DNA of 64,000 nucleotides, from assembly GCF_013112245.1 (NCBI RefSeq), contig NZ_WVRN01000002.1:558001-622000 (forward strand), in the 5' to 3' direction. Below, one piece after another: positions 14,202 through 32,570 of this stretch. The position numbers were made by a program, and so were the translations under genes. This DNA is from Ruegeria sp. HKCCD4315 (GTDB lineage: Bacteria > Pseudomonadota > Alphaproteobacteria > Rhodobacterales > Rhodobacteraceae). The notes beneath the pieces are model-generated. The model had not been told where the DNA came from. It did no database searches and was given only the letters and a program-made list of their open reading frames with translations. Each line of letters starts with the position of its first letter. Positions within the stretch are counted from its first letter, which is position 1.

Positions 14202-15014
14202 CGAACCTCCTCGAGCCTCGAAGGTTCGATTGAGAAGATGGAGAAGTTCGACTTGGTTGGAAGCACCTGTTTTCGAGAATATTGAGCTAAGGTGTGAACG
14301 AACAGTAGCCGGGCCCACCGAAAGATTTTCAGAGATAAACTTTACGGTCATTCCTTCCCTCAGCATCGCACACACCCGGAACTCGCTCCTACTAAGAGCC
14401 GCTGGATTTTGAGGATCAAGGATGGGAACATTTTCGTCGCCACTTCCGCCGACAAGCCGATGGCTTCTGGGACGCTCAGTTCGGGCTGAAATCATACCCG
14501 GCAAGCGGTTTCTCCACCCATTTGAAAGTGTGGAAGTCAAAATCGCTAATAAATCGAGATCCGAGCACAACGGGCTGACACTGTAATGCAGTTCTATGAA
14601 GTCGATATGTGTTTCGTATTTCTCAAGCGGAATTACAATGACTTCAACCAATCCTTCAGGCTTATGATACTCATAGCGTGACTTCGGCTCGGTGCCGGAC
14701 AGCATAGTGTCCGTCAATTTCCAGACTGACCCTTGCTTTGCTGTTGAAATGATTGCCCCAAAAATCAACTCCGCTTGAGTTTGAGGCTGCGAAGGCCATA
14801 TTTTTCCCTGCTGGATACAGCAACGCGCAATATGTTTTATTTTCCGCTCATTTTTCGAAGCTCTAACAACCAATAGTGCATCAGCATTTAACAAATGCAT
14901 CAACATTTTTGCTGCCTTCAAAAGAGATCCATTATTGTTTACGGCCTTTGTCCACTCCATTACGAAGTCAAAGCTTTTCTTCGCATGAGCACTCTTAAAA
15001 AAACTGACACTCAT
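14181..15014 (-). CDS. LuxR-family transcriptional regulator
   Basis: 277 residues. The C-terminal LuxR/GerE helix-turn-helix lies at about 208-255 (LSRSEFRVCAMLREGMTVKF, then LSVGPATVRSHLSSIFSKTG). The N-terminal 180 residues are an unrecognised sensor-like region with no receiver-domain aspartate pattern and no clear acyl-homoserine-lactone pocket signature. It is divergent from the Tad operon across a 505-bp AT-rich spacer, so it is the natural candidate regulator of pilus expression (inference). The start at 15014 (MSVSFFKS) has no strong ribosome binding site. The 3' end overlaps the edge of direct repeat A by about 20 bp. Confidence 0.78.
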   Translation of the reverse strand: MSVSFFKSAHAKKSFDFVMEWTKAVNNNGSLLKAAKMLMHLLNADALLVVRASKNERKIKHIARCCIQQGKIWPSQPQTQAELIFGAIISTAKQGSVWKLTDTMLSGTEPKSRYEYHKPEGLVEVIVIPLEKYETHIDFIELHYSVSPLCSDLDLLAILTSTLSNGWRNRLPGMISARTERPRSHRLVGGSGDENVPILDPQNPAALSRSEFRVCAMLREGMTVKFISENLSVGPATVRSHLSSIFSKTGASNQVELLHLLNRTFEARGGSCQKNIA

Positions 15015-15519
15015 AACTCACAACCAGGTTAGACAATATTACGTCGAACAGAACACTTCCGAACTATGGTCTCAAACTTGTTCCACTGGTGGTGCTTCAT
15101 CAAACGATTTAACAAAATCGACGTAACCACCCCTCCAGTCGAATAAGGAAAAATCACTTATAACTATCTAATTTAATGTATTTTATTATTTTCCCCTCTC
15201 AAAAAAATGAGCTCATCTGAAAAAATCAAAAGCTGCAAAATTGGCACTCAATCAGTTCACAGTTCCAGCATCATCCACCCAATTGTTTACGAACCAAACG
15301 ATTCCCTCATACATTAATTACTCGTTAATTTTCGGTTAATCATTATCATCCTTGAGTTGAAGTTTTTATAACTTTAACTTTTCTTGATTGTATTTTTTAT
15401 ATCTTTGAATGAAGGCTACCTACTTCTCAATCGATATTCTGATTCCAAGCTAATGCATTTTGCCAAGCTTACGTTGCAATTCCATGCAGCGGTGAAACCA
15501 AGTTAACCTTTTGGGGGAA
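15015..15519. promoter_or_regulatory. AT-rich divergent intergenic region between luxR-type gene and flp
   Basis: No gene is seen in these 505 bp. The stretch is markedly AT-rich with runs of T and A (15160-15200, 15360-15410) and must hold the promoters for both the regulator (leftward) and the Tad operon (rightward). I could not assign a specific -35/-10 pair or operator with confidence. The last bases, GGGGGAA, are the flp ribosome binding site. Confidence 0.5.
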
Positions 15520-15699
15520 ATGATGATCAAGTTTATGAAGAATTTTGCCAAGAATGAAAGTGGCGCGGCGATTGTCGAATACGGCCTAGCTCTTTTGGTG
15601 GTCGCATCGATTGCAGTCGGAGCATTCTCGTACTTGGGCACTACTACCAATACAAATGTGACCGGTGCCTGCGCCGCCTTGGGCAGCGCAACCTGCTGA
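15520..15699 (+). CDS. flp: Flp-type pilin (Tad major pilin)
   Basis: 59-residue type IVb prepilin. Short positive leader (MMIKFMKNFAKNESG) followed by the cleavage/assembly motif AAIVEYGLALLVVASIAVGA: processing after Gly15, with Glu as the fifth residue of the mature form and the following Tyr characteristic of Flp pilins. The mature peptide would be only 44 residues and ends in GACAALGSATC, with two cysteines that could form a disulphide. The start is the ATG at 15520, or 15523, behind GGGGGAA; an in-frame TTG at 15511 is less likely. It is the first gene of the Tad operon. Confidence 0.9.
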   Translation: MMIKFMKNFAKNESGAAIVEYGLALLVVASIAVGAFSYLGTTTNTNVTGACAALGSATC

Positions 15700-15714
15700 A
15701 CGAAAATCGTTCAG
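15696..15714 (+). terminator. Stem-loop overlapping the flp stop codon
   Basis: Perfect 8-bp stem CTGAACGA/TCGTTCAG with a 3-base loop, placed across the flp TGA. There is no following T-run, so it is more likely an mRNA-stabilising or processing structure than an intrinsic terminator. Confidence 0.55.
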
Positions 15715-15724
15715 AAAATAACAG

Positions 15725-15761
15725 AACTCTGCGCCTCACAACAATGTGGCGGCGCAGAGTT
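15725..15761 (+). terminator. Strong stem-loop between flp and cpaB
   Basis: Perfect 11-bp GC-rich stem AACTCTGCGCC/GGCGCAGAGTT with a 15-base loop, 10 bp after the previous hairpin. No T-run follows. The position, directly after an abundant-product gene and before the low-abundance assembly genes, fits partial termination or protection of a short flp transcript. Confidence 0.6.
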
Positions 15762-15830
15762 GACCGCCAGGAATTTCGCAAGACAGGAAACCGAAGTTCC
15801 GTATTTACAGCGTAACTTTTGGAGAGAGAT

Positions 15831-16790
15831 ATGCGTATCAGACCAGTCATTTCTACACTGTTTGGAATAGCGATAGCTTCCGGTTCCGTTTACCTGGCGA
15901 AGGATCATATTCAGTTCAAGACCAACACCGCTGGAGTATCGTCTGATGCAGACCTGGTTGAAATTTATGTAGCCCGGTCGGAAATCGCCTTTGGTCAAAC
16001 GATTGAATCTCATCACGTGACGCTTCACCCCTGGCCGCGTGAAGCCCTTCCGGCCGGAGTTTTCACGGACATTGATGTCCTTGTTCCCGACAATCGTCGC
16101 CAACTGCGTCGAGCCAAGGGTCGGTTCTACCCCGGCGAGGTAATGCTTCTTTCAAAGGTTTCAAACTTTGGAGAAAAAGTCACCTTAGTTCAGAAGCTGG
16201 GCGAAAACACACGCGCAATGGCGATCGAAGTCGATGCTGTAACTGCCGTAGGTGGGTTTGTTACCCCGGGAGATCATGTCGACATCGTTTTGACACAAGG
16301 TGCGAAGCAGGAACTACGCGCAGTAACCATTTTACAGAACATCCGGGTTATTGGCGTAGATCAGCAGTCTGAAGAGCTCAGTGACCAGCCTGAGATCGCC
16401 CGAACGATAACAGTTGAGGTGACACCTCAGCAAGGGCAACGCCTAGCTTTAGCACAAAAAGCTGGAACGCTGAGCCTCACACTAAGAACTCTGGACAGTG
16501 TTGAAGACGAGCCCATGGAAATGGTTCGCCTGCGCGATCTTTTGCAAGAAGAAGGACCAGTGGAAAAGGTTGAAGCCCAACCCACTGTAAAATTGCGCCG
16601 GGGCACCGAGACCGAAGTTGTGACTATTCAAAGACAGCGCGATGAGACTGAAGAAAACATAGAGGCGGATCCTGCTACGGAACTGGAGCCCAACACCCAA
16701 AAGGATGTTCGTCTTACACCAGCGTCCGCGACACCGCGGGTCAAACCTCGCACCCGGCCGGTAAAAATCAGCCAGGCACCCAGTCAATAA
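15831..16790 (+). CDS. cpaB: Tad pilus assembly protein CpaB/RcpC
   Basis: 319 residues. N-terminal membrane anchor (about 4-22), then an SAF-type domain (about 44-110: ARSEIAFGQTIESHHVTLHP) and the RcpC segment AMAIEVDAVTAVGGFVTPGD followed by HVDIVLT, typical of CpaB. The C-terminal third is charged and low-complexity (Glu/Thr/Pro/Arg rich). In Tad systems this periplasmic protein works with the outer-membrane secretin, which is missing from this locus. The start is the ATG at 15831 (MRIRPVIS), preceded by TTGGAGAGAG; an in-frame TTG upstream is rejected. Confidence 0.88.
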   Translation: MRIRPVISTLFGIAIASGSVYLAKDHIQFKTNTAGVSSDADLVEIYVARSEIAFGQTIESHHVTLHPWPREALPAGVFTDIDVLVPDNRRQLRRAKGRFYPGEVMLLSKVSNFGEKVTLVQKLGENTRAMAIEVDAVTAVGGFVTPGDHVDIVLTQGAKQELRAVTILQNIRVIGVDQQSEELSDQPEIARTITVEVTPQQGQRLALAQKAGTLSLTLRTLDSVEDEPMEMVRLRDLLQEEGPVEKVEAQPTVKLRRGTETEVVTIQRQRDETEENIEADPATELEPNTQKDVRLTPASATPRVKPRTRPVKISQAPSQ

Positions 16791-20729: not shown

Positions 20730-22118
20730 GTGTTCAACGAATTTAGATCACGCAAGGCTGCATCCAGCTCAAATGTCTTAGTACTTGAGCAGCCTATCGA
20801 AGTACCTAAGCCGAAGGTGACTCCAGAACCATTGGACGTAGACCTGCAAGCGCACCTGGAGCTCAAAAGTCGCCTTCACAGTGAACTTCTTGATCGGCTA
20901 AACCTGTCGGTTATCGACAAGGTTGAACGGTCCGAATTGAAGCGACAGATCGCCTCGTTAGTTACGGGCCTAATTGAGGCTGAAAACCTTCATTTGCGGT
21001 CCGAAGCTTTTACTTCACTGGTCGACGAATTAATTCACGAAGTTATGGGGCTGGGCCCATTGGAGCCGCTCCTGGAAGACCCAACCGTTAACGACATTCT
21101 GGTCAACTCGTATGATCAGGTTTACGTGGAACGCTATGGCCTGTTGGAGCAATCGAGCGTGCGGTTTCGCGATGAACGCCACCTACTGAGGATAATCGAC
21201 AAGATTGTCAGTAAAGTGGGTCGGCGCATAGATGAATCCCAGCCGTGGGTCGATGCTCGTCTAGAAGACGGCAGCCGCGTTAACGCCATTATTCGTCCGT
21301 GTTCAGTAGATGGACCTGCACTTTCAATCCGCAAATTCTCGCGCAGTCCCTTGACCATCGAAAAGCTTATTCAGCGAGAGAGTATGAATGATCAAGCAGC
21401 CAAGCTTCTGGAAGCGCTGGTCGAAGCACGGCTGAATATTTTGATTTCGGGTGGCACCGGGTCCGGTAAAACAACAATGTTGAATGCGGTGTCCTCTTAT
21501 ATCGACGACAAACAACGTATCGTGACAATCGAAGACGCCGCCGAACTTCAACTGCAACAGAGCCATGTAGTTCGACTGGAAACCCGCCCCCCCAACTCGG
21601 AGGGCCAAGGCGTGATCACTCAACGAGATCTTGTACGCAACGCGCTCAGAATGCGGCCAGACCGCATCATTGTTGGAGAGGTTCGTGGTTCCGAATGCTT
21701 TGACATGCTTCAGGCTATGAACACTGGTCATGACGGTTCGATGACAACCGTTCACGCGAACTCCGCACGTGATGCGCTCAGCCGTGTCGAGCAGATGGTT
21801 ACAATGCTGGGAGCGGATTTACCTGTCAAAACTATTCGGTCTCAAATTGCTTCCGCCATTCAGGTGGTGTTGCAACTGAGCCGTCTCAGCGATGGAACAA
21901 GGAGGGTCATGAGCATTTCAGAAGTCACAGGGATGGAGGATGACACTATTACCATGCAGGATATCTTTGTCTTCAAACGTCGTGGAAAATCAGAAAACGG
22001 AGACGTTTTGGGAGAGTTCCTACCTACTGGCATTCGCCCCAAATGTTTCGATCAGTTGGTTGCCGCCGGTGTCAATGTGGAGACCGATATGTTTATTCAC
22101 GGGGCAACGGCATTATGA
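20730..22118 (+). CDS. cpaF: Tad secretion ATPase CpaF/TadA
   Basis: 462-residue type II/IV secretion ATPase that powers pilin extrusion. Walker A GGTGSGKT at residues 241-248, Walker B region MRPDRIIVGEVRGSE, His box TGHDGSMTTVHANSARDALS, and the N-terminal CpaF segment EVMGLGPLEPLLEDPTVNDI. The start codon is GTG at 20730, with AAAAGGAG seven bases ahead. The stop overlaps the tadB start by four bases. Length and motifs are complete. Confidence 0.93.
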   Translation: MFNEFRSRKAASSSNVLVLEQPIEVPKPKVTPEPLDVDLQAHLELKSRLHSELLDRLNLSVIDKVERSELKRQIASLVTGLIEAENLHLRSEAFTSLVDELIHEVMGLGPLEPLLEDPTVNDILVNSYDQVYVERYGLLEQSSVRFRDERHLLRIIDKIVSKVGRRIDESQPWVDARLEDGSRVNAIIRPCSVDGPALSIRKFSRSPLTIEKLIQRESMNDQAAKLLEALVEARLNILISGGTGSGKTTMLNAVSSYIDDKQRIVTIEDAAELQLQQSHVVRLETRPPNSEGQGVITQRDLVRNALRMRPDRIIVGEVRGSECFDMLQAMNTGHDGSMTTVHANSARDALSRVEQMVTMLGADLPVKTIRSQIASAIQVVLQLSRLSDGTRRVMSISEVTGMEDDTITMQDIFVFKRRGKSENGDVLGEFLPTGIRPKCFDQLVAAGVNVETDMFIHGATAL

Positions 22119-23083
22119 TTGACCTGCAACCGAACACACTGAATATTGTAGTCTATATTTCGATTTTCTTAGGCATTCTGACAGCTTACGAAGGTCTGCA
22201 TCAGCTCCTGCGTCGCAACGAAACCCAAAGCGAAGCCAGAAACCGACGCATGAAGATGATCGAAAATGGAGCCTCAACGGATCAAGTTCTGCAAGTACTC
22301 CGAGATCCCGCAATGTTGGTTGCAGGAGAAAAAGCCGGACCGACTGTGCGATTTCGTCGTTTGCTCGTTCAAGCTGGCTTAACGATTAGCCCAATTTGGG
22401 TCGTCCTCGCAGCAGTTGTCTTAGCCGTGATAGCCTTCACGATCGCCTCCCGGTTCCTCGCTCAAGAACTTGCATTCGTTCTGAGCGCAGTTCTCGGCTT
22501 TGCAGGGCCGTTCGTTCTGTTGACCACCATGAAGAACGCGCGATCGAAGAAGCTAACAAAACAATTGCCGGACGCGTTGGATCTGATGGCCCGAGGGCTA
22601 AAAGTAGGGCATCCCGTGGCCGTCACGGTTGGAACCGTAGCAAAAGATTTGGCAGATCCAATTGGCACTGAATTTGGCATCATTAAGGACCAGATCAATT
22701 TTGGCGATGACGTCGCGACCGCCTTTCACGACTTCGCACAACGTGTGGCTACGGAGGACGCAAAATATCTTGCCGTAAGTATTGGCATTCAGCATGGGAC
22801 CGGCGGCAACCTCGCTCGCGTCTTGTCCATCCTTTCTCAGACCATCAGAGACCGGCACACTATGCAGAAGAAAATCAAGGCGATTTCTGCCGAAGGTCGT
22901 CTGAGCAGCCTTATTCTGACTATATTGCCTGCAATCATCTACTTATCCATCGAAATTTCCACGCCAACTTTCTACGGCGATGTCCGAAATGATCCACTAT
23001 TTCCCTATTTCGCCTTCGCAATTTTAGGCCTGACAATCGCCCAAGGGCTCATCTTGAACCGCTTGGTAAAATTCAAGTTTTAA
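22115..23083 (+). CDS. tadB: Tad inner-membrane platform protein TadB
   Basis: 322 residues with the T2SS-F domain (LPDALDLMARGLKVGHPV, and FHDFAQRVATEDAKYLAVSI). Hydrophobic segments lie near residues 8-27, 90-110, 115-135, 270-290 and 298-318. It forms the inner-membrane platform with TadC on which CpaF acts. The ATG at 22115 (MIDLQPNTLN) overlaps the cpaF stop (ATGA); the in-frame extension to 22043 lies inside cpaF and is rejected. Confidence 0.9.
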   Translation: MIDLQPNTLNIVVYISIFLGILTAYEGLHQLLRRNETQSEARNRRMKMIENGASTDQVLQVLRDPAMLVAGEKAGPTVRFRRLLVQAGLTISPIWVVLAAVVLAVIAFTIASRFLAQELAFVLSAVLGFAGPFVLLTTMKNARSKKLTKQLPDALDLMARGLKVGHPVAVTVGTVAKDLADPIGTEFGIIKDQINFGDDVATAFHDFAQRVATEDAKYLAVSIGIQHGTGGNLARVLSILSQTIRDRHTMQKKIKAISAEGRLSSLILTILPAIIYLSIEISTPTFYGDVRNDPLFPYFAFAILGLTIAQGLILNRLVKFKF

Positions 23084-23099
23084 AAGGAGTTTTGGAGAT

Positions 23100-24086
23100 A
23101 TGGATTTCATTCAAGAATTTCTGAGCGACCAAGAGTTTCCGCCGCAAATATTCCTGCTAGCCGGAATCGCACTCAGCATTTTTTTCGTCGTGGTAGGGTT
23201 GTCCGGTATGGCAGCTAGCGACGACACGGCGGCGCGGCGAATGCGTATAGGGTCAGTTTCAAATGGGCATGGTCAAGATTTCGATCTTATTCAAGGCGAC
23301 AATAGCGACCCACACGGACTGCTGAGAGCTTTCGTTCCATCGTCGAAACGCGAACGTTCAAAGATTGGCAAGCTTTTGAGACAGGCTGGCATTCAACGAA
23401 AGCACGCCATTCGCTCATACTACACCTTTCGTTTGCTCATGGGATTTGTCCTACCAGCAGTGTTCGTAGCAGCCGTCGCCTTGCCTATTGAAGTTCAAGT
23501 CCAGATAGGGATCGCAAGCATTATACAAGGCATTACATGGCTGAATACACTGCAGATCGTTACGGCACTGATGGTGGCGGGCTTTTATGGTCCAGCAATC
23601 TGGCTGCGCTACCGCATAAGGAAACGCCGCCAGGCAATTGAACACAGCCTGCCGAATGCGCTTGATCTGCTACAGGTGGCGATAGAGGCCGGTCTGGGTT
23701 TTGATGCAGCGATGATCCGCGTGTCACATGAAATGGCAAATGCAGCACCGGAAATTTCGCAGGAATTTTCTATACTTCAACTGGAGCTGCAAGCGGGAAA
23801 GGAACGTCAGGCCGCTTTTCTGGACATGGCAGATCGAGTTGGAATCGATGAGTTGAATTCATTTGCGAACGCGTTTTTACAATCCAATCAGTATGGGACC
23901 AGCATTTCAGCATCGTTGCGTAGGTTTGCGACCGACATGAGGCTAGATCGTGAGCTTCGTGCTCAAGAAAAGGCAAACCGTCTGCCAGTGCAAATGTCCG
24001 CCGTCATGGCCATGTGTATGATGCCTGTTTTGTTGTTGATTTGTCTCGCGCCAATGCTGATCCGTTGGGTGAACATGTTTGGGTAG
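23100..24086 (+). CDS. tadC: Tad inner-membrane platform protein TadC
   Basis: 328 residues, T2SS-F family (HSLPNALDLLQVAIEAGLGF, FLDMADRVGIDELNSFANAF). Membrane segments lie near the N-terminus (about 18-38), two in the middle (about 115-165) and one at the C-terminus (VQMSAVMAMCMMPVLLLICL). It starts 16 bp after tadB behind AAAAGGAG. It is the last gene of the operon: the usual tadD is absent, and about 50 bp beyond the stop the sequence turns into transposase remnant. Confidence 0.9.
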   Translation: MDFIQEFLSDQEFPPQIFLLAGIALSIFFVVVGLSGMAASDDTAARRMRIGSVSNGHGQDFDLIQGDNSDPHGLLRAFVPSSKRERSKIGKLLRQAGIQRKHAIRSYYTFRLLMGFVLPAVFVAAVALPIEVQVQIGIASIIQGITWLNTLQIVTALMVAGFYGPAIWLRYRIRKRRQAIEHSLPNALDLLQVAIEAGLGFDAAMIRVSHEMANAAPEISQEFSILQLELQAGKERQAAFLDMADRVGIDELNSFANAFLQSNQYGTSISASLRRFATDMRLDRELRAQEKANRLPVQMSAVMAMCMMPVLLLICLAPMLIRWVNMFG

Positions 24087-24137: not shown

Positions 24138-24785
24138 CTAACCAGTCTCAGTTTGCCGCAGAAACCGTGAACCTATCTGACGCCACCCTGCGAGAGCGGC
24201 GGTGCGTGTCAGCTTGAAGAAGTCTCGGCCGTTGAGGGATCTTTTCTGATTGAAGTGGTTGCATAAGGTGGAATGGACGGACGCGAATTTCTGTAAACTT
24301 CGCATGCGTTTGAAACGCTGCATCGCGCATTCGCGTCGTCGGAAAGGAAGTTGTGAATCCTCGACGCGGTTGTTGAGCCACCTGCCCGTCTTCTGCTTTT
24401 CGGTAGCGCCGAGCTTTCTGAGAGCCGCCCAATACGACGTGAAGCGGTCCGTAACTATCTCTTCTGCAGAGCTGTGACGCTTCATCAATTTCTTGAGGAG
24501 TTTCAATGCCGCCAGCTTGTTTCGGCGTTTGGTAACGATTGCTTCCAGCACTTCGCCCTCATGATCGACGGCCCGCCAGAGGTAGTGCCTATTACATTCA
24601 CCTTCACGAAAACCTCGTACACGTGCCACTTCCATTTCAAGAATACGCGCAGCTGCTGAAAACGCTTCCGCTTTATCTCAGCAGCAAACACTGGGCCAAA
24701 CCTGCTCCATTAATACCGGACAGTTTCGTGTCTCAAGTCGATGCTTCGCTCATGCAACAGTCTTCGACATTCCGAAGCGAGAGCC
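24138..24785 (-). pseudogene. Degenerate IS6-family transposase
   Basis: Remnant of a second type of IS6-family transposase (distinct from the two complete copies). The C-terminal two-thirds is open: HYLWRAVDHEGEVLEAIVTK, EEIVTDRFTSYWAALRKLGA, GRWLNNRVEDSQLPFRRREC, LQKFASVHSTLCNHFNQKRS. Near 24600 the frame shifts, and upstream VFAAEIKRKRFQQLRVFLKW, WHVYEVFVKVN and then HERSIDLRHETVRY continue in another frame with an in-frame stop. The N-terminus is missing, cut where direct repeat B begins. It is therefore non-functional. It lies just after tadC and may mark the loss of downstream Tad genes. Confidence 0.82.
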
Positions 24786-24921: not shown

Positions 24922-25105
24922 CCTGCCTTACATTGGAGGGCTTTGTGATAAAGCGCATTTTTTCGTCACGTCGCCCCGATATCAGGCGAAAGATCTAAGG
25001 CGTCCGGCCGCCTTTCGACCACGTTTTTCTCAGGACTTCGCAGAATCTCAAATTTCTGTTAACGTAACGTCAATCTTTCATGCCGTCCTCAGGAAGGAGA
25101 TGGCC

Positions 25106-25540
25106 ATGGGCGTGGACATACCTGACGATTTCGACATTGATCTTAACCTCAGCGGCGGCAGCACCATTGACGGCGATTTCACTGTCAACAATACCACACG
25201 CATACGCGAACTGCCGACCATCGAGTTGCGGGTCCGGGAATTGCCTGAAATCAAGATCGGGGTGACCGAGCTACCCAAGGTGCAGTTGGGCGTGGACCCC
25301 ATCGACTTCTCGCTGAGGATCAAAGAAATTCCGGCGATCCGGGCGCATCTGCCCGCGAACTTCAAGGTCGGTCTGTCGCTCCTCGGGAACGAGTTGTTGT
25401 CCATCAACCTCTGCGGTGAAGCGCAGGTAATCACCGAGGACTATGTGCCCAATCCTTGCGAGATTTGTGGCCCACCCGGCAATGCGCGCGAAATCTCTGC
25501 GGACGTGAGCCGCATCGAACTTATTGAAGACGATGGCTGA
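25106..25540 (+). CDS. Unrecognised protein with ten-residue ELP-type repeats (isoprenoid operon gene 1)
   Basis: 144 residues, no recognised family. The central part is a periodic run of about ten residues each: RELPTIELRV, RELPEIKIGV, TELPKVQLGV, DPIDFSLRI, KEIPAIRAHL. These would suit a repetitive beta structure with alternating hydrophobic positions. The C-terminal part has a Cys pair (NPCEICGPPGN). No signal peptide is visible. The start is the ATG at 25106, seven bases after AGGAAGGAG; an ATG at 25100 is too close to that site. First gene of a ten-gene operon; its stop overlaps the next start. Confidence 0.7.
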   Translation: MGVDIPDDFDIDLNLSGGSTIDGDFTVNNTTRIRELPTIELRVRELPEIKIGVTELPKVQLGVDPIDFSLRIKEIPAIRAHLPANFKVGLSLLGNELLSINLCGEAQVITEDYVPNPCEICGPPGNAREISADVSRIELIEDDG

Positions 25541-26243
25541 TCTGCACCAGAGCATCACCCTGCGCAAGGGCCGCGCGATAGCACCGTTTGAGGTCGACGA
25601 GGCGCAGTCGGGCGTGCTGAAGCTCGGCGGTGCCTTGAAGAAAGAGATGGGCGCGGAGCTTCGCGCGCGGCTGGTGCCGCGCAAAGGTCAGACGCGGATT
25701 GCGACACGGATCGGCAAGAATGCCCCGCCAGGTGTCCACAAAGCGACACTGGTTACGGAGAACGGTGAATATCCGGTCACGGTCGACGTTCCGGAACGCA
25801 AGAAACTGCGCCTTTCGCCCGCGTCGATCAGCCTAACCGGACGACCGGGAGAGCGGATCAACGCGCAGTTCACTATCTCTAACCGCGGCAATGTCGCATT
25901 GCCAGTTCCGACGGGCGGCGTCGGCGGGCTCTTTGCCTCCGACGGGCTAGCGGGTGCGTTTTCGGCGGCCTATGCCTCGGACGCGGAGGCACCACTTGAG
26001 GTCTTTGGCGAATTTATCCTCGGGCTGCGTCGATCCTATTTGGGCTTGATGCGGCTGAAGCTGACATCGAAGGACAAGGGAGATTTGGCGCCAGGTCAAA
26101 GCCGTGACCTTACAGCGGAATTTACCGTGCCCGAGCCGCTGAACCCGGCTACTCAGCTGGGCGCAGGACGGCGGTTTCATACCACGATTGTCATGTCACA
26201 CTTGCGCCTTGTGGCCCGATTGGCCCTGACCGCTCCGAAATAG
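25533..26243 (+). CDS. Unrecognised protein with Ig-like (NEW3/CARDB-like) domain (isoprenoid operon gene 2)
   Basis: 236 residues. Two beta-rich parts are visible. Residues 1-85 contain LVPRKGQTRIATRIGKNAPP and GVHKATLVTENGEYPVTVDV. From 88 the sequence reads LRLSPASISLTGRPGERINA then QFTISNRGNVALPVP, the pattern of bacterial Ig-like NEW3/CARDB domains (a loop of unstructured Gly/Ala residues, then APGQSRDLTAEFTVPEPLNP). No signal peptide or membrane segment is visible, so it probably stays in the cytoplasm. The ATG at 25533 lies inside the last codons of gene 1. Function unknown. Confidence 0.68.
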   Translation: MADLHQSITLRKGRAIAPFEVDEAQSGVLKLGGALKKEMGAELRARLVPRKGQTRIATRIGKNAPPGVHKATLVTENGEYPVTVDVPERKKLRLSPASISLTGRPGERINAQFTISNRGNVALPVPTGGVGGLFASDGLAGAFSAAYASDAEAPLEVFGEFILGLRRSYLGLMRLKLTSKDKGDLAPGQSRDLTAEFTVPEPLNPATQLGAGRRFHTTIVMSHLRLVARLALTAPK

Positions 26244-26258
26244 AAAGGGAGATCGCCA

Positions 26259-26888
26259 ATGAAAAAGAACAAAATGACGATGCGGGACATGCGCGAAAGT
26301 ATGGACACGATGTCGGATATGATGTTGCGGCAGATGGACCTGTCTGGCGAGTTGGTCGATAGCCTAGCGGATACCGCACGCCGGTTCCTCGCCTCTCTGT
26401 CATCCGGGCAGTCCTTGAACTGTTGCGACATACCTGAACCGTGCTGGATGCCGAAAGATCTGGGCGAATATCATTGCGAGCTCTGTGCGAGCAGCACCGG
26501 GGTGATCGAGATCCGGATCACCAACACCGATTTCCGCCCGCGCAACTTCACGCTTGCCGCAGCGGGTCCCGATGCAGGGCGCGTGAAACTGACCCCCAAC
26601 AGCTATAGCCTCGGCCCCAAGGAACGCCGAACCGTAAGAGCCGAGTTTGACACCAAGCTCGATGACGGCGTGCATTGCGCTGAGTTGGAAGCGCTGATCT
26701 GGGTGGTTGGCTGCAACAGCCATTACCTGCGCTGGACCGTCGAGGTCGGAAAGACCGAGCGCGCTTGCTGTCATCACGTGGAAGTTTTTGACCAGCCGGA
26801 CTACGAGCATCATTGGTATGACCATTTCTACTGCGTGCGACCCTGCTATGGGCGGTCGGTGCGGCCGGGTATAGGGATCAAAGGGTGA
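26259..26888 (+). CDS. Unrecognised Cys/His-rich protein with amphipathic N-terminus and Ig-like core (isoprenoid operon gene 3)
   Basis: 209 residues. An N-terminal Met-rich helix (MRDMRESMDTMSDMMLRQMD and on to ADTARRFLASL) looks phasin-like. It is followed by a Cys cluster (SLNCCDIPEPCW, YHCELCASS), then an Ig-like strand set (VIEIRITNTDFRPRNFTLAA, LGPKERRTVRAEFDTKLDDG). The tail is rich in His, Cys and Tyr (ACCHHVEVFDQPDYEHHWYD, HFYCVRPCYG) and could bind metal. No signal peptide. Ribosome binding site AAAGGGAG. No family recognised. Confidence 0.66.
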   Translation: MKKNKMTMRDMRESMDTMSDMMLRQMDLSGELVDSLADTARRFLASLSSGQSLNCCDIPEPCWMPKDLGEYHCELCASSTGVIEIRITNTDFRPRNFTLAAAGPDAGRVKLTPNSYSLGPKERRTVRAEFDTKLDDGVHCAELEALIWVVGCNSHYLRWTVEVGKTERACCHHVEVFDQPDYEHHWYDHFYCVRPCYGRSVRPGIGIKG

Positions 26889-26891
26889 CCT

Positions 26892-27395
26892 ATGTCGAAT
26901 TCGCAGATGAAAGATATTTTCAACCAGGCCATGCGCCTGAATATAAAGTATTATTCCGGTCTCTTTGACGTCACCAAGGATTACCTCGGCGCGCTGCGGG
27001 ATTTGGCCGAACAGGGCCTGGAGAAATCCCCGCCCGCTACCGTCGTACCAAGGCCTGCTGCGCCTGCGATCCAGCCACTGATCCTCGCGGCACCTGCTGG
27101 GAAACTGGCCGAGGCAAGTTTTGCGGTCACCAACAACACTGGGAAGGAGATGGCCGCAGATCCGGAGGTCTCGGAAAGCCTGCGCACGGCTGGTGTGATC
27201 GCCGAACCGGCGGGCCGGATGGTCGCGCATGGGGAGAACGTAGTATTTACGCTCAAGGGCAAACCCACGTCGAAGATGAAGCTAGACCAGGACATTCATG
27301 GCAGCGTCAGCGTGCGCCACTTTGGCGACCGTGAGATCCCGGTCGTGTTGCGGCGGTTGAAGGCGCCGGCCAAACCGAAGGGGAAACGGGCATGA
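26892..27395 (+). CDS. Unrecognised phasin-like/Ig-like protein with basic tail (isoprenoid operon gene 4)
   Basis: 167 residues in three parts. First, an amphipathic N-terminal helix (IFNQAMRLNIKYYSGLFDVT, KDYLGALRDLAEQGL) reminiscent of phasins. After a Pro/Ala linker comes a compact Ig-like domain (AEASFAVTNNTGKEMAADPE, HGENVVFTLKG, SVSVRHFGDREIPVVLRRL). Last is a short basic end (KAPAKPKGKRA). The architecture matches the protein encoded at 29307. It starts 3 bp after the previous stop and overlaps the methyltransferase start (ATGA). Confidence 0.66.
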   Translation: MSNSQMKDIFNQAMRLNIKYYSGLFDVTKDYLGALRDLAEQGLEKSPPATVVPRPAAPAIQPLILAAPAGKLAEASFAVTNNTGKEMAADPEVSESLRTAGVIAEPAGRMVAHGENVVFTLKGKPTSKMKLDQDIHGSVSVRHFGDREIPVVLRRLKAPAKPKGKRA

Positions 27396-28231
27396 GCGCG
27401 CCCGGCGGCATCCTGGCCGAAGGCGTGCTGGTGCAGGCCATGCATCTCTATTCCGCTTTGGTGATGCGGCCCTATGAACATGGGCGCAACGCAGGTCTAG
27501 TCGAGCGGACGACGATGGGCACCCTGCCTCAACCGCTTGATCGCAACGGCCTCGGCCCGCATTTTTCCCGGAAATACCCCAAGCCAGTGTTGCTCGGGCG
27601 CGCCACGGAGAACGACGCTCTCGTCTCTGAGTTCGACCGGATGGGCGAGATTTATGACGCCTACGTGCGGCCCTTTTCGACCCCGATCATGAATGCTGCT
27701 GTCGAGGAGCTCTCGGCCTGGATTAAGCCGGACTTTCGACTTCTCGACGCAGGCTGTGGCGCGGGACGCGAACTATGCCGCTTGTCGCGCATGGTGCCTG
27801 AGGGCGAAGCTGTGGGCATTGATCTGGCCGCAGGAATGGTCAACGCGGCCCATGCCTCGGCCCGCGCTAAAGCATTTGATAATACGTCGTTTTTCCAGTC
27901 TGATGTGGGCGATCTGCCCGAGGTTTTCACTGAGCAATTCGATCTCGTCTATTCCTGCCTTGCCCATCACCACTATCCCGACCCGCCTGCCGCCACGCGC
28001 GAGATTTTTCGCGCCCTTCGCCCGGGTGGCTACTACACAGTGATCGACGCAGGCCCTGAATGGTTCGTAAAACGCTCCTCCGGCCTCGCACTCTGGGCTG
28101 ATCCGGGCTGGATCGGGTTCCACACGCCCGAACAGTTCATGGCGCTGTTTGAGGCAGCAGGGTTTGAAAACACCGGTTGGATCGACCTTGTACCCGGCTT
28201 CGGCATCGCCTGCGCTCAGAGGCCCCTTTGA
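27392..28231 (+). CDS. Class I SAM-dependent methyltransferase (isoprenoid operon gene 5)
   Basis: 279 residues. Motif I LLDAGCGAGRELCRL at about 116-130, then VGIDLAAGMVNAAHASARAK, a VGDLPEVF acidic-loop region and YSCLAHHHYPDPPAATREIF with RALRPGGYYTVID: a UbiE/Methyltransf_11-type fold. The first 85 residues are an extra, partly helical segment. Position directly upstream of, and overlapping, the polyprenyl synthase suggests a prenyl-derived or quinone-like substrate (inference only). No membrane segment. Confidence 0.8.
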   Translation: MSAPGGILAEGVLVQAMHLYSALVMRPYEHGRNAGLVERTTMGTLPQPLDRNGLGPHFSRKYPKPVLLGRATENDALVSEFDRMGEIYDAYVRPFSTPIMNAAVEELSAWIKPDFRLLDAGCGAGRELCRLSRMVPEGEAVGIDLAAGMVNAAHASARAKAFDNTSFFQSDVGDLPEVFTEQFDLVYSCLAHHHYPDPPAATREIFRALRPGGYYTVIDAGPEWFVKRSSGLALWADPGWIGFHTPEQFMALFEAAGFENTGWIDLVPGFGIACAQRPL

Positions 28232-29295
28232 ACGAGAATACCTACGACCGGGCCCTTATTGAGCAGGCCCTCAACACCGCGCGGACCCGGACAGAGAAAG
28301 CGATGACCCGCTTTTTTAATGCCCGGCGCGAGACGGGGATGGATGTGCTCTACGATCAGATCAGCGACTATCCGTTTCGAGTGGGCAAAGGCCTGCGGCC
28401 CGCGCTGGTCTACGCTGCTTGTCAGGGCATGGGCGGAACCGAAGCGCAGGCAGAAAACACGGCGACGGCCATTGAGCTCTTTCACAACGGCGCTCTGGTG
28501 CATGACGATATCGAGGATATTTCGGACTTCCGGCGCGGGGATGAGACGCTCTTTCGCCGTCACGGGGTGCCGATTGCGATCAACACCGGGGACGCGACTT
28601 TTGTCTTCTGCCTCTCGCTTCTGCTCGACAATGTTGAACAGCTCGGTGTCCGAAAGGCGATGCGTATCTTGAAGGATTTCGAACGGCTTAGCCGCGAATC
28701 CGTCGAAGGCCAGGCCATAGAGCTCGATTGGATTCGAAACGCACGGTTTGACCTCGACAGCGAAGACTACTTGCGCATGGCCTATAAAAAGACCTGTTGG
28801 TATACCATGATCGCGCCTCTGCGCTTGGGCGTCGTCGCAGGCTCCGGTCCGTCGATGGTGGCCGATCTCGAAGAGGCGCTGATAGACGTGATGGAGTTGG
28901 GCTACCTCGCGGGCATCGGCTTTCAGGTGCAGGACGATCTGCTGAACCTCACCGCCGACGAGGTGCTCTATGGCAAGGAGATCAGCGGCGATCTTTACGA
29001 GGGCAAGCGCACGATCATGCTGCTGCATTTTCTACGCACCGCCCCCAAACGCCAACGCACCCGCGCGATCAAACTGTTGACGCAGCCGCGGCCCAAGAAG
29101 GAACCCGACGAAGTACGTTGGCTCCTGCAGGCGATGCATGAGGCCGGTTCCATCGACCACGGGCGCGACTTGGCGCAGGATTTCATCACCCGCGCGCTGA
29201 AATTCGAAGCGGAGGGGCTGCGTTTCATGCCCGAAACCCGCCACCGCCAATTCCTCCGCGAAGTGCTGAAATACGTGATTGCAAGACTGAAGTAA
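28228..29295 (+). CDS. Polyprenyl (isoprenyl) diphosphate synthase family protein (isoprenoid operon gene 6)
   Basis: 355 residues of the trans-prenyltransferase fold, condensing isopentenyl diphosphate onto allylic diphosphates. The first aspartate-rich motif is DDIED at 93-97 (LVHDDIEDISDFRRG). The second is QDDLLN (Asp236, Asp237, with Asn240 where Asp is usual). GKGLRPALV, the chain-binding Lys/Arg region, and GDLYEGKRTIMLLHFL are present. The start appears to be TTG at 28228, overlapping the methyltransferase stop (TTGA); in-frame ATG codons upstream lie deep in that gene. Chain length cannot be told reliably. The Asn in the second motif may alter metal binding. Confidence 0.87.
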   Translation: MNENTYDRALIEQALNTARTRTEKAMTRFFNARRETGMDVLYDQISDYPFRVGKGLRPALVYAACQGMGGTEAQAENTATAIELFHNGALVHDDIEDISDFRRGDETLFRRHGVPIAINTGDATFVFCLSLLLDNVEQLGVRKAMRILKDFERLSRESVEGQAIELDWIRNARFDLDSEDYLRMAYKKTCWYTMIAPLRLGVVAGSGPSMVADLEEALIDVMELGYLAGIGFQVQDDLLNLTADEVLYGKEISGDLYEGKRTIMLLHFLRTAPKRQRTRAIKLLTQPRPKKEPDEVRWLLQAMHEAGSIDHGRDLAQDFITRALKFEAEGLRFMPETRHRQFLREVLKYVIARLK

Positions 29296-29306
29296 GAGGG
29301 ACCGCC

Positions 29307-29894
29307 ATGTCACATGACCACGACCACGCAAGCACCCCATCGAGCCCTTTCGAGGAGCTGATAAAGCTGCAAAGCGCGTTTCAGCAGAGCCTGAGCCAGG
29401 CGACAATGCAGTATCTGCGGCAGCTGCAGGGCATCGTTGGGCCGGTCACTCCGGGCACCGTCGTGCATCAGGTGGATGGTGCAGGTGTCGCGCTCAAGCT
29501 GCGGCCCGGGGGTCAGGCGAACGCGAGCGTCAACGTCGAGAACCGGCAGCGCGTACACTCCATGGTCACGCCGATGATCACACCTTTGGTCTCCGATACC
29601 GGGGCCACGTGGTTTGCGCAGACCGCCTTCACACCTCCCACCGCGCTGCTGGCTACCGATGAGGTGCTGGACTTCGCGCTGGTACTGGAGGCACCGAAAG
29701 ACATGCCCCTCGGCGTCTATCGTGGCGCCGTGCTGATCTATGGCTGCAGCGATGGCGTCGTACCGCTGGAGGTGACCGTGGCCAAACAGGCAGCAAAGCG
29801 CAAAACAACGCCGGCTGCCGCCAAGTCAAAGACAGCAACCAAAAAGGCGTCCGCGCGTAAGACCGCCGCCCGCAAATCCACCAAAGCGTCCTGA
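29307..29894 (+). CDS. Phasin-like/Ig-like protein with histone-H1-like Lys/Ala tail (isoprenoid operon gene 7)
   Basis: 195 residues. His-rich start (MSHDHDHAS), an amphipathic helix (FEELIKLQSAFQQSLSQATM, QYLRQLQGIVG), an Ig-like beta domain (about 55-155; GQANASVNVENRQRVHSMVT, MPLGVYRGAVLIYGCSDGVV), then about 40 residues of Lys/Ala/Thr repeats (AKRKTTPAAAKSKTATKKAS). The tail resembles those of PhaF-type phasins and histone H1-like proteins, which bind DNA. The overall plan repeats that of gene 4. No signal peptide. Function unknown; a coat or tether protein is a guess. Confidence 0.66.
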   Translation: MSHDHDHASTPSSPFEELIKLQSAFQQSLSQATMQYLRQLQGIVGPVTPGTVVHQVDGAGVALKLRPGGQANASVNVENRQRVHSMVTPMITPLVSDTGATWFAQTAFTPPTALLATDEVLDFALVLEAPKDMPLGVYRGAVLIYGCSDGVVPLEVTVAKQAAKRKTTPAAAKSKTATKKASARKTAARKSTKAS

Positions 29895-29906
29895 GGAGAC
29901 CCGCCG

Positions 29907-30470
29907 ATGTCCAACAGTGCCAGCATCCGCCTGATAGACCCGCCGGAGGACTCAGGCCGCACCACGGCGAGCCTCTTCTCCTCGCTCGCGAGCCGGTTGA
30001 TTACCTTACACTATACCTCGGGCGTCAGTGTCATAGGATCGACGCTCGCCGGGCTCGCCGAAGCGGGCCGGGAAATCTCCAAGACTGCCGAAGGTGCCCG
30101 CATCCGCCGGGCGCTCGAAACCAGCGCCGTGAAGGATAACGGCGAGCTTTTGTGGAGCGCCCTGCGTGTCACCGGCTGGACCGAAGGCATGCCCGCAGCA
30201 CCCGTGCTCGACCACATCCGCAATGACCTAGCCCTACTTCTCGCTGACGATTTGGCCGAAACGATCGACAACGTCCCTGCCCCGTTGGAAAACAAGGTTT
30301 ACAAAAGCAAGACCGTGCCGCCGGCGATCACCTTTATCGACACGCTGATGGGCCTCTGGATTCACTCGCGCGAGATCGTGCAATCGGTCGAAGCGCTGGC
30401 CCGCAGCGCGCCGGAACGAGACGACATCGAACCTGGGGACGCGGTACACAGCGGCCCGATACTGCGGTGA
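29907..30470 (+). CDS. Unrecognised mainly helical protein (isoprenoid operon gene 8)
   Basis: 187 residues, predicted mostly helical and soluble. Segments such as SLFSSLASRLITLHYTSGVS, IGSTLAGLAEAGREISKTAE and FIDTLMGLWIHSREIVQSVE are amphipathic. No motif of a known enzyme family was found. The ribosome binding site is GAGGAG and the stop overlaps the next start (GTGA). Probably a structural partner of the other operon products, but this rests on position only. Confidence 0.6.
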   Translation: MSNSASIRLIDPPEDSGRTTASLFSSLASRLITLHYTSGVSVIGSTLAGLAEAGREISKTAEGARIRRALETSAVKDNGELLWSALRVTGWTEGMPAAPVLDHIRNDLALLLADDLAETIDNVPAPLENKVYKSKTVPPAITFIDTLMGLWIHSREIVQSVEALARSAPERDDIEPGDAVHSGPILR

Positions 30471-31465
30471 CAGCCTTCGACGCGCTCCGACCACCGGCCC
30501 TTAGCGATCCGACGGCGGCAGCTTATAAGGACTGGTTTCACCTCAACGTCTTTCTGCCTAACACGGGGCGCGTTGTGCTGATCAACCTGTCGCTGCATGG
30601 CCCCCCTTGGGACGCACGCGGGCGGGCCGTCGGCACGGCGCTGGCGAGCGGGACGGATGGCGATTGGATCGGTGGCATCGAAATCGCCTCATTCGCTGAA
30701 AGCGCGGTGGACACACAGGCCGTGTTTCTCAGCACGATCTCTATGGCCGTGACCCGTGATGGCAAAACGCTGCACGCGAAGGTCGCCCGCCCTGAAGACG
30801 GGTTCGAGGCAGATTTGATCGCGCGCCCGGTTCTTCCGGCCGGTGCGCTGGATCTCACCGCGCAGTTCGGCAGCGGGTGGATCGGGTGGAGCGCAGTGCC
30901 TGTTCTCTCGATCTCGGGAACTTTGATCCTCGATGGCAAAGCGGTCTCGCTGGAGAACGCGCGCGGCTATCACGACCACAATTGGGGCCGATGGTTCTGG
31001 GGCGAGGATGTTGCTTGGGAATGGGGCGCCTGGGTGCTGAGCGACGACATCACCGTGGTGGCGGCGCGTGGCACGGACAAGGCCCATTTCAACCACCAGC
31101 CTCCGCATGTGTTTCTGGTCCACGGCAGAAAGGTGCACGCGTTCCTGCCAAGTCAGATAAACCTGAGTTATGAGACCGTGCCGACCCGTGCGACAAGGCG
31201 GTTGCCCGGCGCGCTGGCAGCGATCCACCCGGATCGTCGCGCGCCAGATCTTCCGCGCAGGGTGACATTGCAGGCGGAAAGCCGCACTGCGAGGTTTGAA
31301 TTGCATTTCGAGGCGGAGACTGTGGCCCAACTGCTCTTGGCCGACCCAATGCGCCCCGGCTCCGGCTATATCAACGAGCTGGCAGGCCGTTGCCATCTTG
31401 TTGCCAGTCTCGACCGCGCCTTGTTGCGCGCTGAAGGTTGCGGGGTTTTCGAATATGTCGAGTGA
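30467..31465 (+). CDS. CrtC/AttH lipocalin-like protein (isoprenoid operon gene 9)
   Basis: 332 residues, GTG start overlapping the previous stop. The centre carries YHDHNWGRWFWGED (HDHNWG at 169-174) and WEWGAWVLSDDITVVAARG, the hallmark of carotenoid 1,2-hydratase CrtC and related AttH-like double-lipocalin proteins that act on hydrophobic terpenoids. The N-terminal half has FHLNVFLPNTGRVVLINLSL and GGIEIASFAE. No signal peptide, and no phytoene synthase or desaturase gene nearby, so a carotenoid role is not supported. A water-adding or isomerising step on the prenyl product, or lipid binding, is the likely role. Confidence 0.7.
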   Translation: MTAFDALRPPALSDPTAAAYKDWFHLNVFLPNTGRVVLINLSLHGPPWDARGRAVGTALASGTDGDWIGGIEIASFAESAVDTQAVFLSTISMAVTRDGKTLHAKVARPEDGFEADLIARPVLPAGALDLTAQFGSGWIGWSAVPVLSISGTLILDGKAVSLENARGYHDHNWGRWFWGEDVAWEWGAWVLSDDITVVAARGTDKAHFNHQPPHVFLVHGRKVHAFLPSQINLSYETVPTRATRRLPGALAAIHPDRRAPDLPRRVTLQAESRTARFELHFEAETVAQLLLADPMRPGSGYINELAGRCHLVASLDRALLRAEGCGVFEYVE

Positions 31466-31988
31466 GCCCCGCCACCTGCGCGACTGGATTGTCGCACTCT
31501 ACGCAGCGCTGGAGGAGGCCGAGCCGCATAGTGCGGCGGCCATTCGCAAGCTCGCGGGTGCGCAGCTGTCGCGCATGGTGTTGGACGCGGATCGTGTTAC
31601 CGTACGCTTTGTCGAGGACAGGCTGCAGGTCCGGAGGATACGGGCCAGCACCGCGCAGCTGAAAACCCCCAATGGCGCCACCAATCGCATCACGGTCACG
31701 GCGCTGCTGCAGGGGTATATGGAGATTTCAGAGGCCATCGCACAGGATCAAATCCGGCTGCGCGGCACCGCAGATGAGGTGATGGCAATCTGCGCAATCA
31801 TCGAGGTTCTGGTAGACGCCAGCACGCGGGTGCCCGCCCTTCAACGCTTAGCCGCTGCGTTTCTGCAGATAACCGGGCAGGAAACGGTCCGCGCCAGCCG
31901 GCGGGCGCGCGCGGCAGCAGCACGCGCCCAGGCCGAGAAAGAGCGTGCGCTCTTGCAGCGCGAAGGCCTGTTGCGGGCACCGAGGTGA
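31455..31988 (+). CDS. SCP2-like lipid-carrier protein with basic tail (isoprenoid operon gene 10)
   Basis: 177 residues, overlapping the preceding gene by 11 bp. The middle (about 30-135) follows the sterol-carrier protein 2 pattern: VTVRFVEDRLQVRRIRAS, VTALLQGYMEISEAIAQDQI, RLRGTADEVMAICAIIEVL. SCP2 folds bind lipids in a hydrophobic tunnel. The last 35 residues are Arg/Ala/Glu rich and helical (RASRRARAAAARAQAEKERA). A lipid-binding partner for the isoprenoid made by this operon is plausible. The SCP2 match is by pattern and not certain. Confidence 0.6.
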   Translation: MSSEPRHLRDWIVALYAALEEAEPHSAAAIRKLAGAQLSRMVLDADRVTVRFVEDRLQVRRIRASTAQLKTPNGATNRITVTALLQGYMEISEAIAQDQIRLRGTADEVMAICAIIEVLVDASTRVPALQRLAAAFLQITGQETVRASRRARAAAARAQAEKERALLQREGLLRAPR

Positions 31989-32145
31989 AGAAAACCGACC
32001 CAGGCCGGAAGCTCTGCGGACCATATCGACGGACCTAGTGATCGCCTCATGCTCGGCATTGAGATTGGTTGTCGGCACCTGCAGGATCGCAAAGAGTACG
32101 ACCGCCATGAATTGGGTGACCAGAACAACCTGCGCCCCGTTGACC

Positions 32146-32472
32146 TCAAAGATCGGGTTGAGACAGCTCGATACTGCGATTGTGAGCAGCTTGCGCAGTC
32201 TTTTGAATGAGCGGGAACATCCCGTTCTCACGTGACATCAACTCCTGCAGTCCCGCGTCTGTTGTCCCATTTGGGGACGTAACCTCATTTCGGAGGCTAG
32301 CAGGTGATAAGGAGCTGGATCGCAGAAGATCACCGCTCCCAGAGATCATTGTTCTTGCCAGTTTTGCTGCAACTTCTTGGGTCAAACCCAATTCTCTTCC
32401 TGCTTCTGTCAACGCTTCTGTCATCGCGAACACATAGGCCGGGCCGCTTCCAGAAATGGCTGTCAAGATCAT
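32146..32472 (-). pseudogene. proC: 3' fragment of pyrroline-5-carboxylate reductase
   Basis: About 108 residues matching only the C-terminal dimerisation domain of ProC: LTAISGSGPAYVFAMTEALT, AAKLARTMISGSGDLLR and NEVTSPNGTTDAGLQELM. The NADP-binding N-terminal half is absent; the sequence before 32472 does not continue it on any frame. A broken end here and the base-composition change suggest the right edge of an insertion or deletion next to the isoprenoid operon. Non-functional unless the missing half is elsewhere. The 157 bp between it and the operon hold no gene that I recognise. Confidence 0.8.
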
Positions 32473-32570
32473 TCAGATTTCAGATCATCTACCGACCATA
32501 TATTCCGTTAATTTAGTAGTTAAATGGTCTAGGCTTCCCATTGGATGAATCGGAATTTTAGGAGAAGAAC

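Follow-up and report, generated by a model that had tools for sequence, protein, structure and literature searches.

Positions 25,100-31,988 of a 64,000-nucleotide stretch of the Ruegeria sp. HKCCD4315 genome (the window) are filled by ten open reading frames (ORFs), A-J, all on the same strand, of which the first four form a cassette, A-D, that recurs in nine bacterial phyla, mostly beside one of several exchangeable enzyme modules. The ORFs overlap by 4-11 bases at A/B, D/E, E/F, H/I, and I/J, and the other four junctions are gaps of 3-15 bases. The gene models are listed here (aa, amino acids; Ig, immunoglobulin; T1, label of the enzyme module present in the window).

Gene A, 25100..25540, + strand: 146 aa, core cassette, amphipathic-beta protein
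Gene B, 25533..26243, + strand: 236 aa, core cassette, Ig-like by profile likeness to G
Gene C, 26259..26888, + strand: 209 aa, core cassette, helix, PapD/MSP-like domain, and conserved Cys/His
Gene D, 26892..27395, + strand: 167 aa, core cassette, N-terminal helix, Ig-like domain, short basic tail
Gene E, 27392..28231, + strand: S-adenosylmethionine-dependent methyltransferase (Pfam), T1 module
Gene F, 28228..29295, + strand: TTG start, trans-polyprenyl diphosphate synthase, T1 module
Gene G, 29307..29894, + strand: 195 aa, T1 module, helix, Ig-like domain, histone-like lysine/alanine (K/A) tail
Gene H, 29907..30470, + strand: 187 aa, T1 module, uncharacterised
Gene I, 30467..31465, + strand: GTG start, 332 aa, T1 module, weakly CrtC/AttH-like
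Gene J, 31455..31988, + strand: 177 aa, T1 module, weakly SCP2-like, start chosen by manual reading

Two of the proteins exceed curated Pfam cut-offs, namely E as methyltransferase (8.7e-23) and F as polyprenyl synthetase (PF00348, 1.6e-50), in agreement with the initial annotation, which was made from the letters and ORFs of the window; the eight proteins A-D and G-J have no Pfam match above these cut-offs. Compared with three loci of the Roseobacter group, the ratio of nonsynonymous to synonymous substitution rates (dN/dS) was 0.02-0.21 in 26 of 30 gene comparisons, rough values with dS >= 1 in 20 of the 26, and the other four gave no finite dS. Therefore, A-J are not chance ORFs and are apparently under purifying selection. 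No export signal was seen in any of the ten proteins by hydropathy alone, as the same annotation had stated for six unrecognised ones. It had also taken all ten genes as one unit, which holds for their packed and overlapping arrangement here; elsewhere, A-D (in part with E) and F-J are separable blocks. F-J lies upstream in the loci L022, L023, L029, and L033 and on the other strand in L010, and an inseparable ten-gene unit was therefore rejected.

Distribution of the A-D cassette and its enzyme modules

A search with C yielded 301 proteins, and scanning 84,980 species genomes for patterns derived from aligned C sequences yielded 36 loci in 35 genomes, which is a lower bound because only loci with one of two C patterns are detectable. 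Searches with A covered 396 genomes of the Acidobacteriota, the phylum of genome G092 (three matches, two new), 375 of the Gemmatimonadota, the phylum of G089 (four matches, two new), and 350 of the class of G076, a Rubrivivax (four matches, two new). The 36 pattern loci, these six, the window, and G005 give 44 cassette loci in nine phyla, named on the tree of C as Pseudomonadota, Myxococcota, Acidobacteriota, Gemmatimonadota, Planctomycetota, Chloroflexota, Actinomycetota, Dormiibacterota, and Fidelibacterota. The co-occurrence that the initial annotation had proposed to check is thus conserved for A-D. In 34 of the 42 loci scanned with profiles (36 from the C patterns, six from the A searches) A, B, C, and D lie on one strand in that order, and in none are they out of order; A-D can therefore be regarded as a conserved unit. 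Among the eight partial loci, L012, L015, L021, L025, L028, and L031 end at contig ends, L131 has C slightly below threshold, and L030 has no D match. All six loci found by A alone contain B, C, and D, some as weak matches (C with 40 bits in L131 and 46 bits in L132); three carry T1-like, T2, or T3 modules and three carry T4. Among the first 38 loci, the window copy L001 included, A was detected in 34. The A family has 1,692 homologues, and none of the 120 listed has a functional name; those that bear a name are called 'hypothetical protein', and the named ones of the 120 listed for C are called the same or 'COG1470 family protein'. In the open PubMed Central (PMC) literature, which leaves subscription papers and preprints outside its coverage, no description of the A-D cassette was found.

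Beside A-D, 39 of the 44 loci carry one of four modules, for which the labels T1-T4 were coined in this analysis, and the genome of L021 has a T1 gene at another site. T1 (15 loci, the window included) comprises the methyltransferase, the prenyl synthase, and the weakly CrtC/AttH-like and SCP2-like proteins. All of E-J is present in 13 loci (the window, L003-L010, L022, L023, L029, and L033), and E adjoins D wherever T1 is complete; L134 has F and I only, and in L021 the contig ends after C and the homologue elsewhere is that of I. T2 (12 loci) consists of a second prenyl synthase, a flavin adenine dinucleotide (FAD) enzyme of the geranylgeranyl reductase (GGR) family, and a small helical basic protein. 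It is complete in 11 loci; in L036 the FAD enzyme is cut by the contig end and a synthase lies on another contig. The T2 enzyme of L013, which lies outside the window, exceeds the curated cut-off of the geranylgeranyl reductase family TIGR02032 (199.2 > 158.8). The T2 enzyme profile matches reductases mixed with FADH2-dependent halogenases in the PDB, the best match being a halogenase, and its reaction is therefore uncertain. For the T2 helical protein the only functional names among 120 listed homologues are three JGI labels 'DUF305 family'. T3 is defined by PhaC, the polyhydroxyalkanoate (PHA) synthase, as the next gene after D in seven loci (L002, L012, L014, L015, L016, L018, and L136). 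T4 (L024, L025, L027, L131, L132, and L135) contains a DUF362 protein of about 800 aa, over cut-off, and a short-chain dehydrogenase/reductase similar to HpnA (264 bits against TIGR03466 in L131, under the cut-off of 368). Two further T4 proteins are poorly recognised, a weakly polyketide-cyclase/lipid-transport-like one (below cut-off) and a well-conserved, faintly propeller-like one of 420 aa, present in five of the six loci, for which no family scores over cut-off; L024, cut by the contig end, shows the DUF362 and HpnA-like genes only. An ABC1/UbiB-type kinase adjoins T4 in L131 (by Pfam) and in L132 (by homology). At least in T1-T3, the exchanged element is an enzyme set for a hydrophobic product.

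On the tree of C (36 loci, excluding L031 and the window copy) the four module labels need 9 changes, compared with 19.0 in shuffles. A supported clade of Pseudomonadota (100/98) contains T1, T3, and one set outside T1-T4, and the T1 locus L010 groups, less firmly (94/83), with T3 sets. The PhaC of L014 matches PhaC_N (PF07167) with 8.4e-54, and PhaC_N is present in the genomes of the first six T3 loci. The six T3 PhaC proteins form one clade (100/100), separate from 24 other PhaC sequences; the same six hosts supplied eight of these 24, and other cassette-bearing genomes the remainder. Omitted from this tree were a short fragment, four duplicates, and any match whose locus had not been fetched. 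The catalytic Cys, Asp, and His are kept in all six aligned T3 PhaC proteins, and their branching, judged by reading, agrees with the C tree where this is resolved. L002 (G005:C5), from the same genus as the window, has the PhaC version T3, compared with the isoprenoid version T1 in the genome of the window. None of the ten window proteins is a PhaC, and the one PhaC of the host lies on another contig, C1. PhaC proteins of Solirubrobacter soli (L054 and L066, in the genome of L030) are among the nearest to the T3 clade; the A-B-C cassette of L030 has no T3-type PhaC match in the surrounding 20 kb.

Proteins of the operon

The C-terminal part of A is conserved (GEAQVITE.Y.PNPCE) and its beta-moment has a median z of 3.9; its structure model is of low confidence, with a hairpin at 81-111. 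B resembles G with an hhalign probability of 95, compared with only 19.5 for B and C. C carries the motifs CDIPEPCWMP ... HWYDHFYC..PC, and its Cys/His are invariant across 30 aligned sequences; the initial annotation had noticed Cys/His clusters in one of the proteins. The strikingly invariant Cys, His, and Trp residues (CDIPEPCWMP, HWYDHFY), encoded at 26424-26846, occur in C despite the lack of a visible export signal, and could form a metal site or disulfides. A-D might therefore be a cytoplasmic regulatory, stress, or metal/redox system that merely travels with lipid clusters, with the Cys/His of C binding metal. We regard this as improbable, as A-D immediately precede PhaC in Pseudomonadota and, in several phyla, lie close to prenyl synthases, and no regulator-type domain was found in the ten window proteins.

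In a VIA-align fold search with its model, the core of C aligns to PapD/MSP-type domains: 38 of the 50 matches shown are, counted by title, pilus chaperones, MSP domains, or ciliary/ASH/PapD-like domains, and a family missing from these 50 is not thereby excluded. Thus C contains a PapD/MSP-like domain according to a model that is confident over the aligned domain. Its identity to MSP/VAP, ASH, and PapD-like domains is 11-13%, a likeness of fold only, which need not imply a shared function. D and G are paralogues that share a helix and an Ig-like domain and often end in basic residues. The last 30 residues of G contain ten K/R, nine A, and no D/E, a histone-like K/A-rich C-terminal tail as in tethers of the PhaF/PhaM type, and one of 25 D members has a histone-like HC2 match (9.3e-06). 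Median z values of the maximal helix moment are 1.75 for C (n=38), 1.57 for D (n=29), and 2.25 for G (n=17), where five of the 17 G entries are D or C matches and L001 is counted in both C and D. From the combination of amphipathic helix and Ig-like domain proposed before, the Ig-like domains of D and G could be retained, and the helices are candidates with modest scores.

PapD/MSP-like folds are often used for protein contacts, and the fold of the C core would suit a scaffold. A-D could accordingly organise a soluble or membrane-attached metabolon that channels hydrophobic intermediates and delivers its product to membranes, with no inclusion being formed. Lipid-handling candidates in the modules point the same way, all of them weak (SCP2 for J with 0.13, and the T4 lipid-transport-like protein below cut-off). 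However, a scaffold is not obviously useful to PhaC, whose known product is a granule-forming polymer, and the histone-like tails of D and G would be left without a role, so that we consider such a metabolon rather unlikely.

Among the T1 proteins, E shows UbiE-type similarity (Ubie_methyltran 6.9e-11, UbiE 2.5e-12), though generic and ArsM-type methyltransferase models score better. F has the first Asp-rich motif, DDIED, and DDLLN in place of the second DDxxD motif; this second motif reads DDLLN or DDVLN in six T1 sequences and DDVxD or DDLxD in ten T2 sequences. I carries the motif YHDHNWG.W.WG, and its profile weakly matches AttH (2ich, 0.0072) and a CrtC-domain chain (7a0q, 0.02); a sequence search of solved structures with I alone gave no match. 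The J homologue of L022 has a weak SCP2 match (0.13), and for J and the T2 helical protein nothing convincing was found in sequence searches of solved structures. The designations CrtC/AttH-like and SCP2-like from the initial annotation therefore stand as weak likenesses, none of them over a Pfam cut-off. UbiE-type similarity, a prenyl synthase, and the CrtC-like motif in I could also be expected of an ordinary side branch of quinone or carotenoid synthesis that carries along genes of no known function. This is highly improbable, as the host carries three prenyl synthases besides F and the part conserved across loci consists of the uncharacterised genes, not of the enzymes. F as the sole prenyl synthase of the host was rejected for the same three enzymes. 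The model NF041169 for the polyprenyl transferase cargo of Family 2 encapsulins scores F with 151.9 and the T2 synthase of L013 with 79.5 bits, for which it is the best named match; its cut-off of 450 lies far above, no shell protein was matched among the ten window proteins, and an encapsulin system was rejected on these two grounds.

A putative coat for hydrophobic inclusions

From gene content, order, and linkage, the exchange of modules, one fold, and the conserved motifs, we lean on balance towards the reading that A-D form a reusable surface coat for a cytoplasmic hydrophobic inclusion, the content of which is set by the neighbouring module. A coat is the simplest account, because a fixed four-protein set pairs with exchangeable makers of a hydrophobic product. 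In the window, F would make a prenyl diphosphate, E and I would modify this prenyl product, and J and I may handle or carry lipid. A, C, D, and G would lie with their amphipathic parts on the particle surface, and B, C, D, and G may link coat proteins and enzymes through their PapD/MSP-like and Ig-like domains. A tether between particle and nucleoid, of the kind that PhaF and PhaM provide for PHA granules, might be formed by the K/A-rich tails found on G and on many homologues of D. In passages of PMC5658603, PhaF is described as combining an amphipathic PHA-binding helix with histone-like AAKP repeats, and part of PMC13052382 describes PhaM and PhaF as binding both granule and DNA. In other bacteria, A-D would coat PHA from the dedicated PhaC (T3) or a reduced isoprenoid from the joint action of a prenyl synthase and a GGR-type reductase (T2); the inclusion would accordingly contain PHA in T3 and isoprenoid in T1 and T2.

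The intracellular hydrophobic body with coat and tether proteins that the initial annotation had suggested gains circumstantial support from the occurrence of A-D with PhaC in seven loci and with a second isoprenoid module in 12, and from the candidate amphipathic helices, the PapD/MSP-like domain, and the histone-like tails; T4 is not explained by it. As evidence that would speak against itself, that annotation had named Ig-like genes without a prenyl synthase in other genomes, and taken literally these were found, in the T3 and T4 loci (13 of 44). Since the prenyl synthase gives way in T3 to a different enzyme that makes a hydrophobic polymer, this finding broadens the idea of a hydrophobic body more than it speaks against it. 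Like the PHA granule (carbonosome), the loci combine a synthase for a hydrophobic polymer with small proteins that have candidate amphipathic helices and in part histone-like tails, and the T3 PhaC has its catalytic triad. Unlike phasins, A-D and G match no phasin model, B, C, D, and G carry Ig-like or PapD/MSP-like domains, and A-D also accompany isoprenoid enzymes in genomes in which the search for PhaC was negative. PhaC_N was present in 16 of 37 genomes searched, and no PhaC was found in any of the 17 searched T1/T2 genomes outside the Roseobacter group, so that A-D are unlikely to coat PHA there.

Several points weigh against a coat. Metagenome assemblies make up many of the genomes that lack a PhaC match, although those of Cellulomonas are isolates. 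All T3 loci belong to the Pseudomonadota (L136 by the group searched), the six T4 loci have no recognised polymer or isoprenoid synthase, four loci lie outside T1-T4 (L020, L030, L031 from the same genome as L028, and L038), and module adjacency is given as raw counts. A coat role does not account for the invariant Cys/His of C. Among the models only that of C is partly confident, its helix is of low confidence, and the Foldseek TM-scores listed for it are <= 0.39 by query length; the model of A was too poor to be interpreted beyond its one hairpin. The helix-moment scores are modest (median z 1.6-2.3). The basic tail is absent from G of three Cellulomonas loci and from D of the T3 loci L002, L015, and L016, and a tether is therefore not universal. 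Moreover, G reaches 15.3 bits against Phasin_2, compared with a cut-off of 24.9, and no phasin family was listed for 25 D members or ten T2 helical proteins. The designation phasin-like was thus not borne out by sequence, and known phasin families were rejected for G, D, and the T2 helical protein.

A protein-coated hydrophobic inclusion is a known principle; we found the modular arrangement described nowhere, and the coat-like proteins matched no tested phasin or encapsulin model. More tentatively than the coat itself, A-D may represent a new and widespread bacterial organelle system, in which a standard coat is fitted to different hydrophobic cores by module exchange and which would include true isoprenoid granules of modified or reduced polyprenoids; we regard the two parts together as possible, falling somewhat short of probable. 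No dedicated coat for isoprenoid granules was found in the open PMC literature. If true, this would be a second bacterial way to coat hydrophobic inclusions, unrelated in sequence to known phasins, with one coat serving polyester and isoprenoids alike. It would turn isoprenoid storage or sequestration bodies into a testable proposition for many phyla, supply terpenoid or bioplastic engineering with an exchangeable scaffold, and give the A family a first functional frame. The modular pairing would let gene exchange in laboratory strains separate the proteins that set the surface from those that set the content.

Borders and genomic setting of the operon

The operon has a guanine-cytosine (GC) content of 0.57-0.64, compared with about 0.50-0.53 in the adjoining kilobases, though the first 3 kb of the window are likewise high (0.60-0.63). 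Both borders hold broken genes.

Left border, 24138..24635, - strand: remnant of an IS240/IS6-type DDE transposase (PF13610, 5.9e-28), 165 aa only
Right border, 32146..32472, - strand: truncated proC, dimerisation domain only (PF14748, 1.6e-28)

Compared with positions 18,001-42,000 of the window, DNA similarity of seven Roseobacter/Ruegeria loci begins at 25,024-25,036 and stops at 31,843-32,165, and these loci have no further DNA match of more than 150 bases within that range. Ten stretches from genomes of the same genus, taken around the AsmA gene downstream, become similar to the window at 32,462 or 32,463 (nine stretches) or at 32,496 (one stretch). The sharp limits of DNA similarity therefore suggest that the operon was acquired as a discrete block, a conclusion that is well supported by GC content and borders together; the higher GC, the broken genes, and the acquisition had all been put forward by the initial annotation. 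C is present in its own genome and in one of 60 relatives. It was found in none of 393 other genomes drawn from the family and has no match among 72,556 plasmid records, from which records very near the genome of the window were possibly excluded.

Of the four contigs in the genome, the one that bears the operon (the window is G000:C2:558001-622000) is 897 kb long and possibly a chromid or megaplasmid. Directly upstream, at 20730-24086 on the + strand, are Tad-type pilus genes, the first of which has a GTG start; they include a TadA-like ATPase, identified by reading, and end with a T2SSF protein by Pfam. Elsewhere in the window, 15001-16000 has a low GC content of 0.418 and 53001-54000 an AT skew of -0.264.

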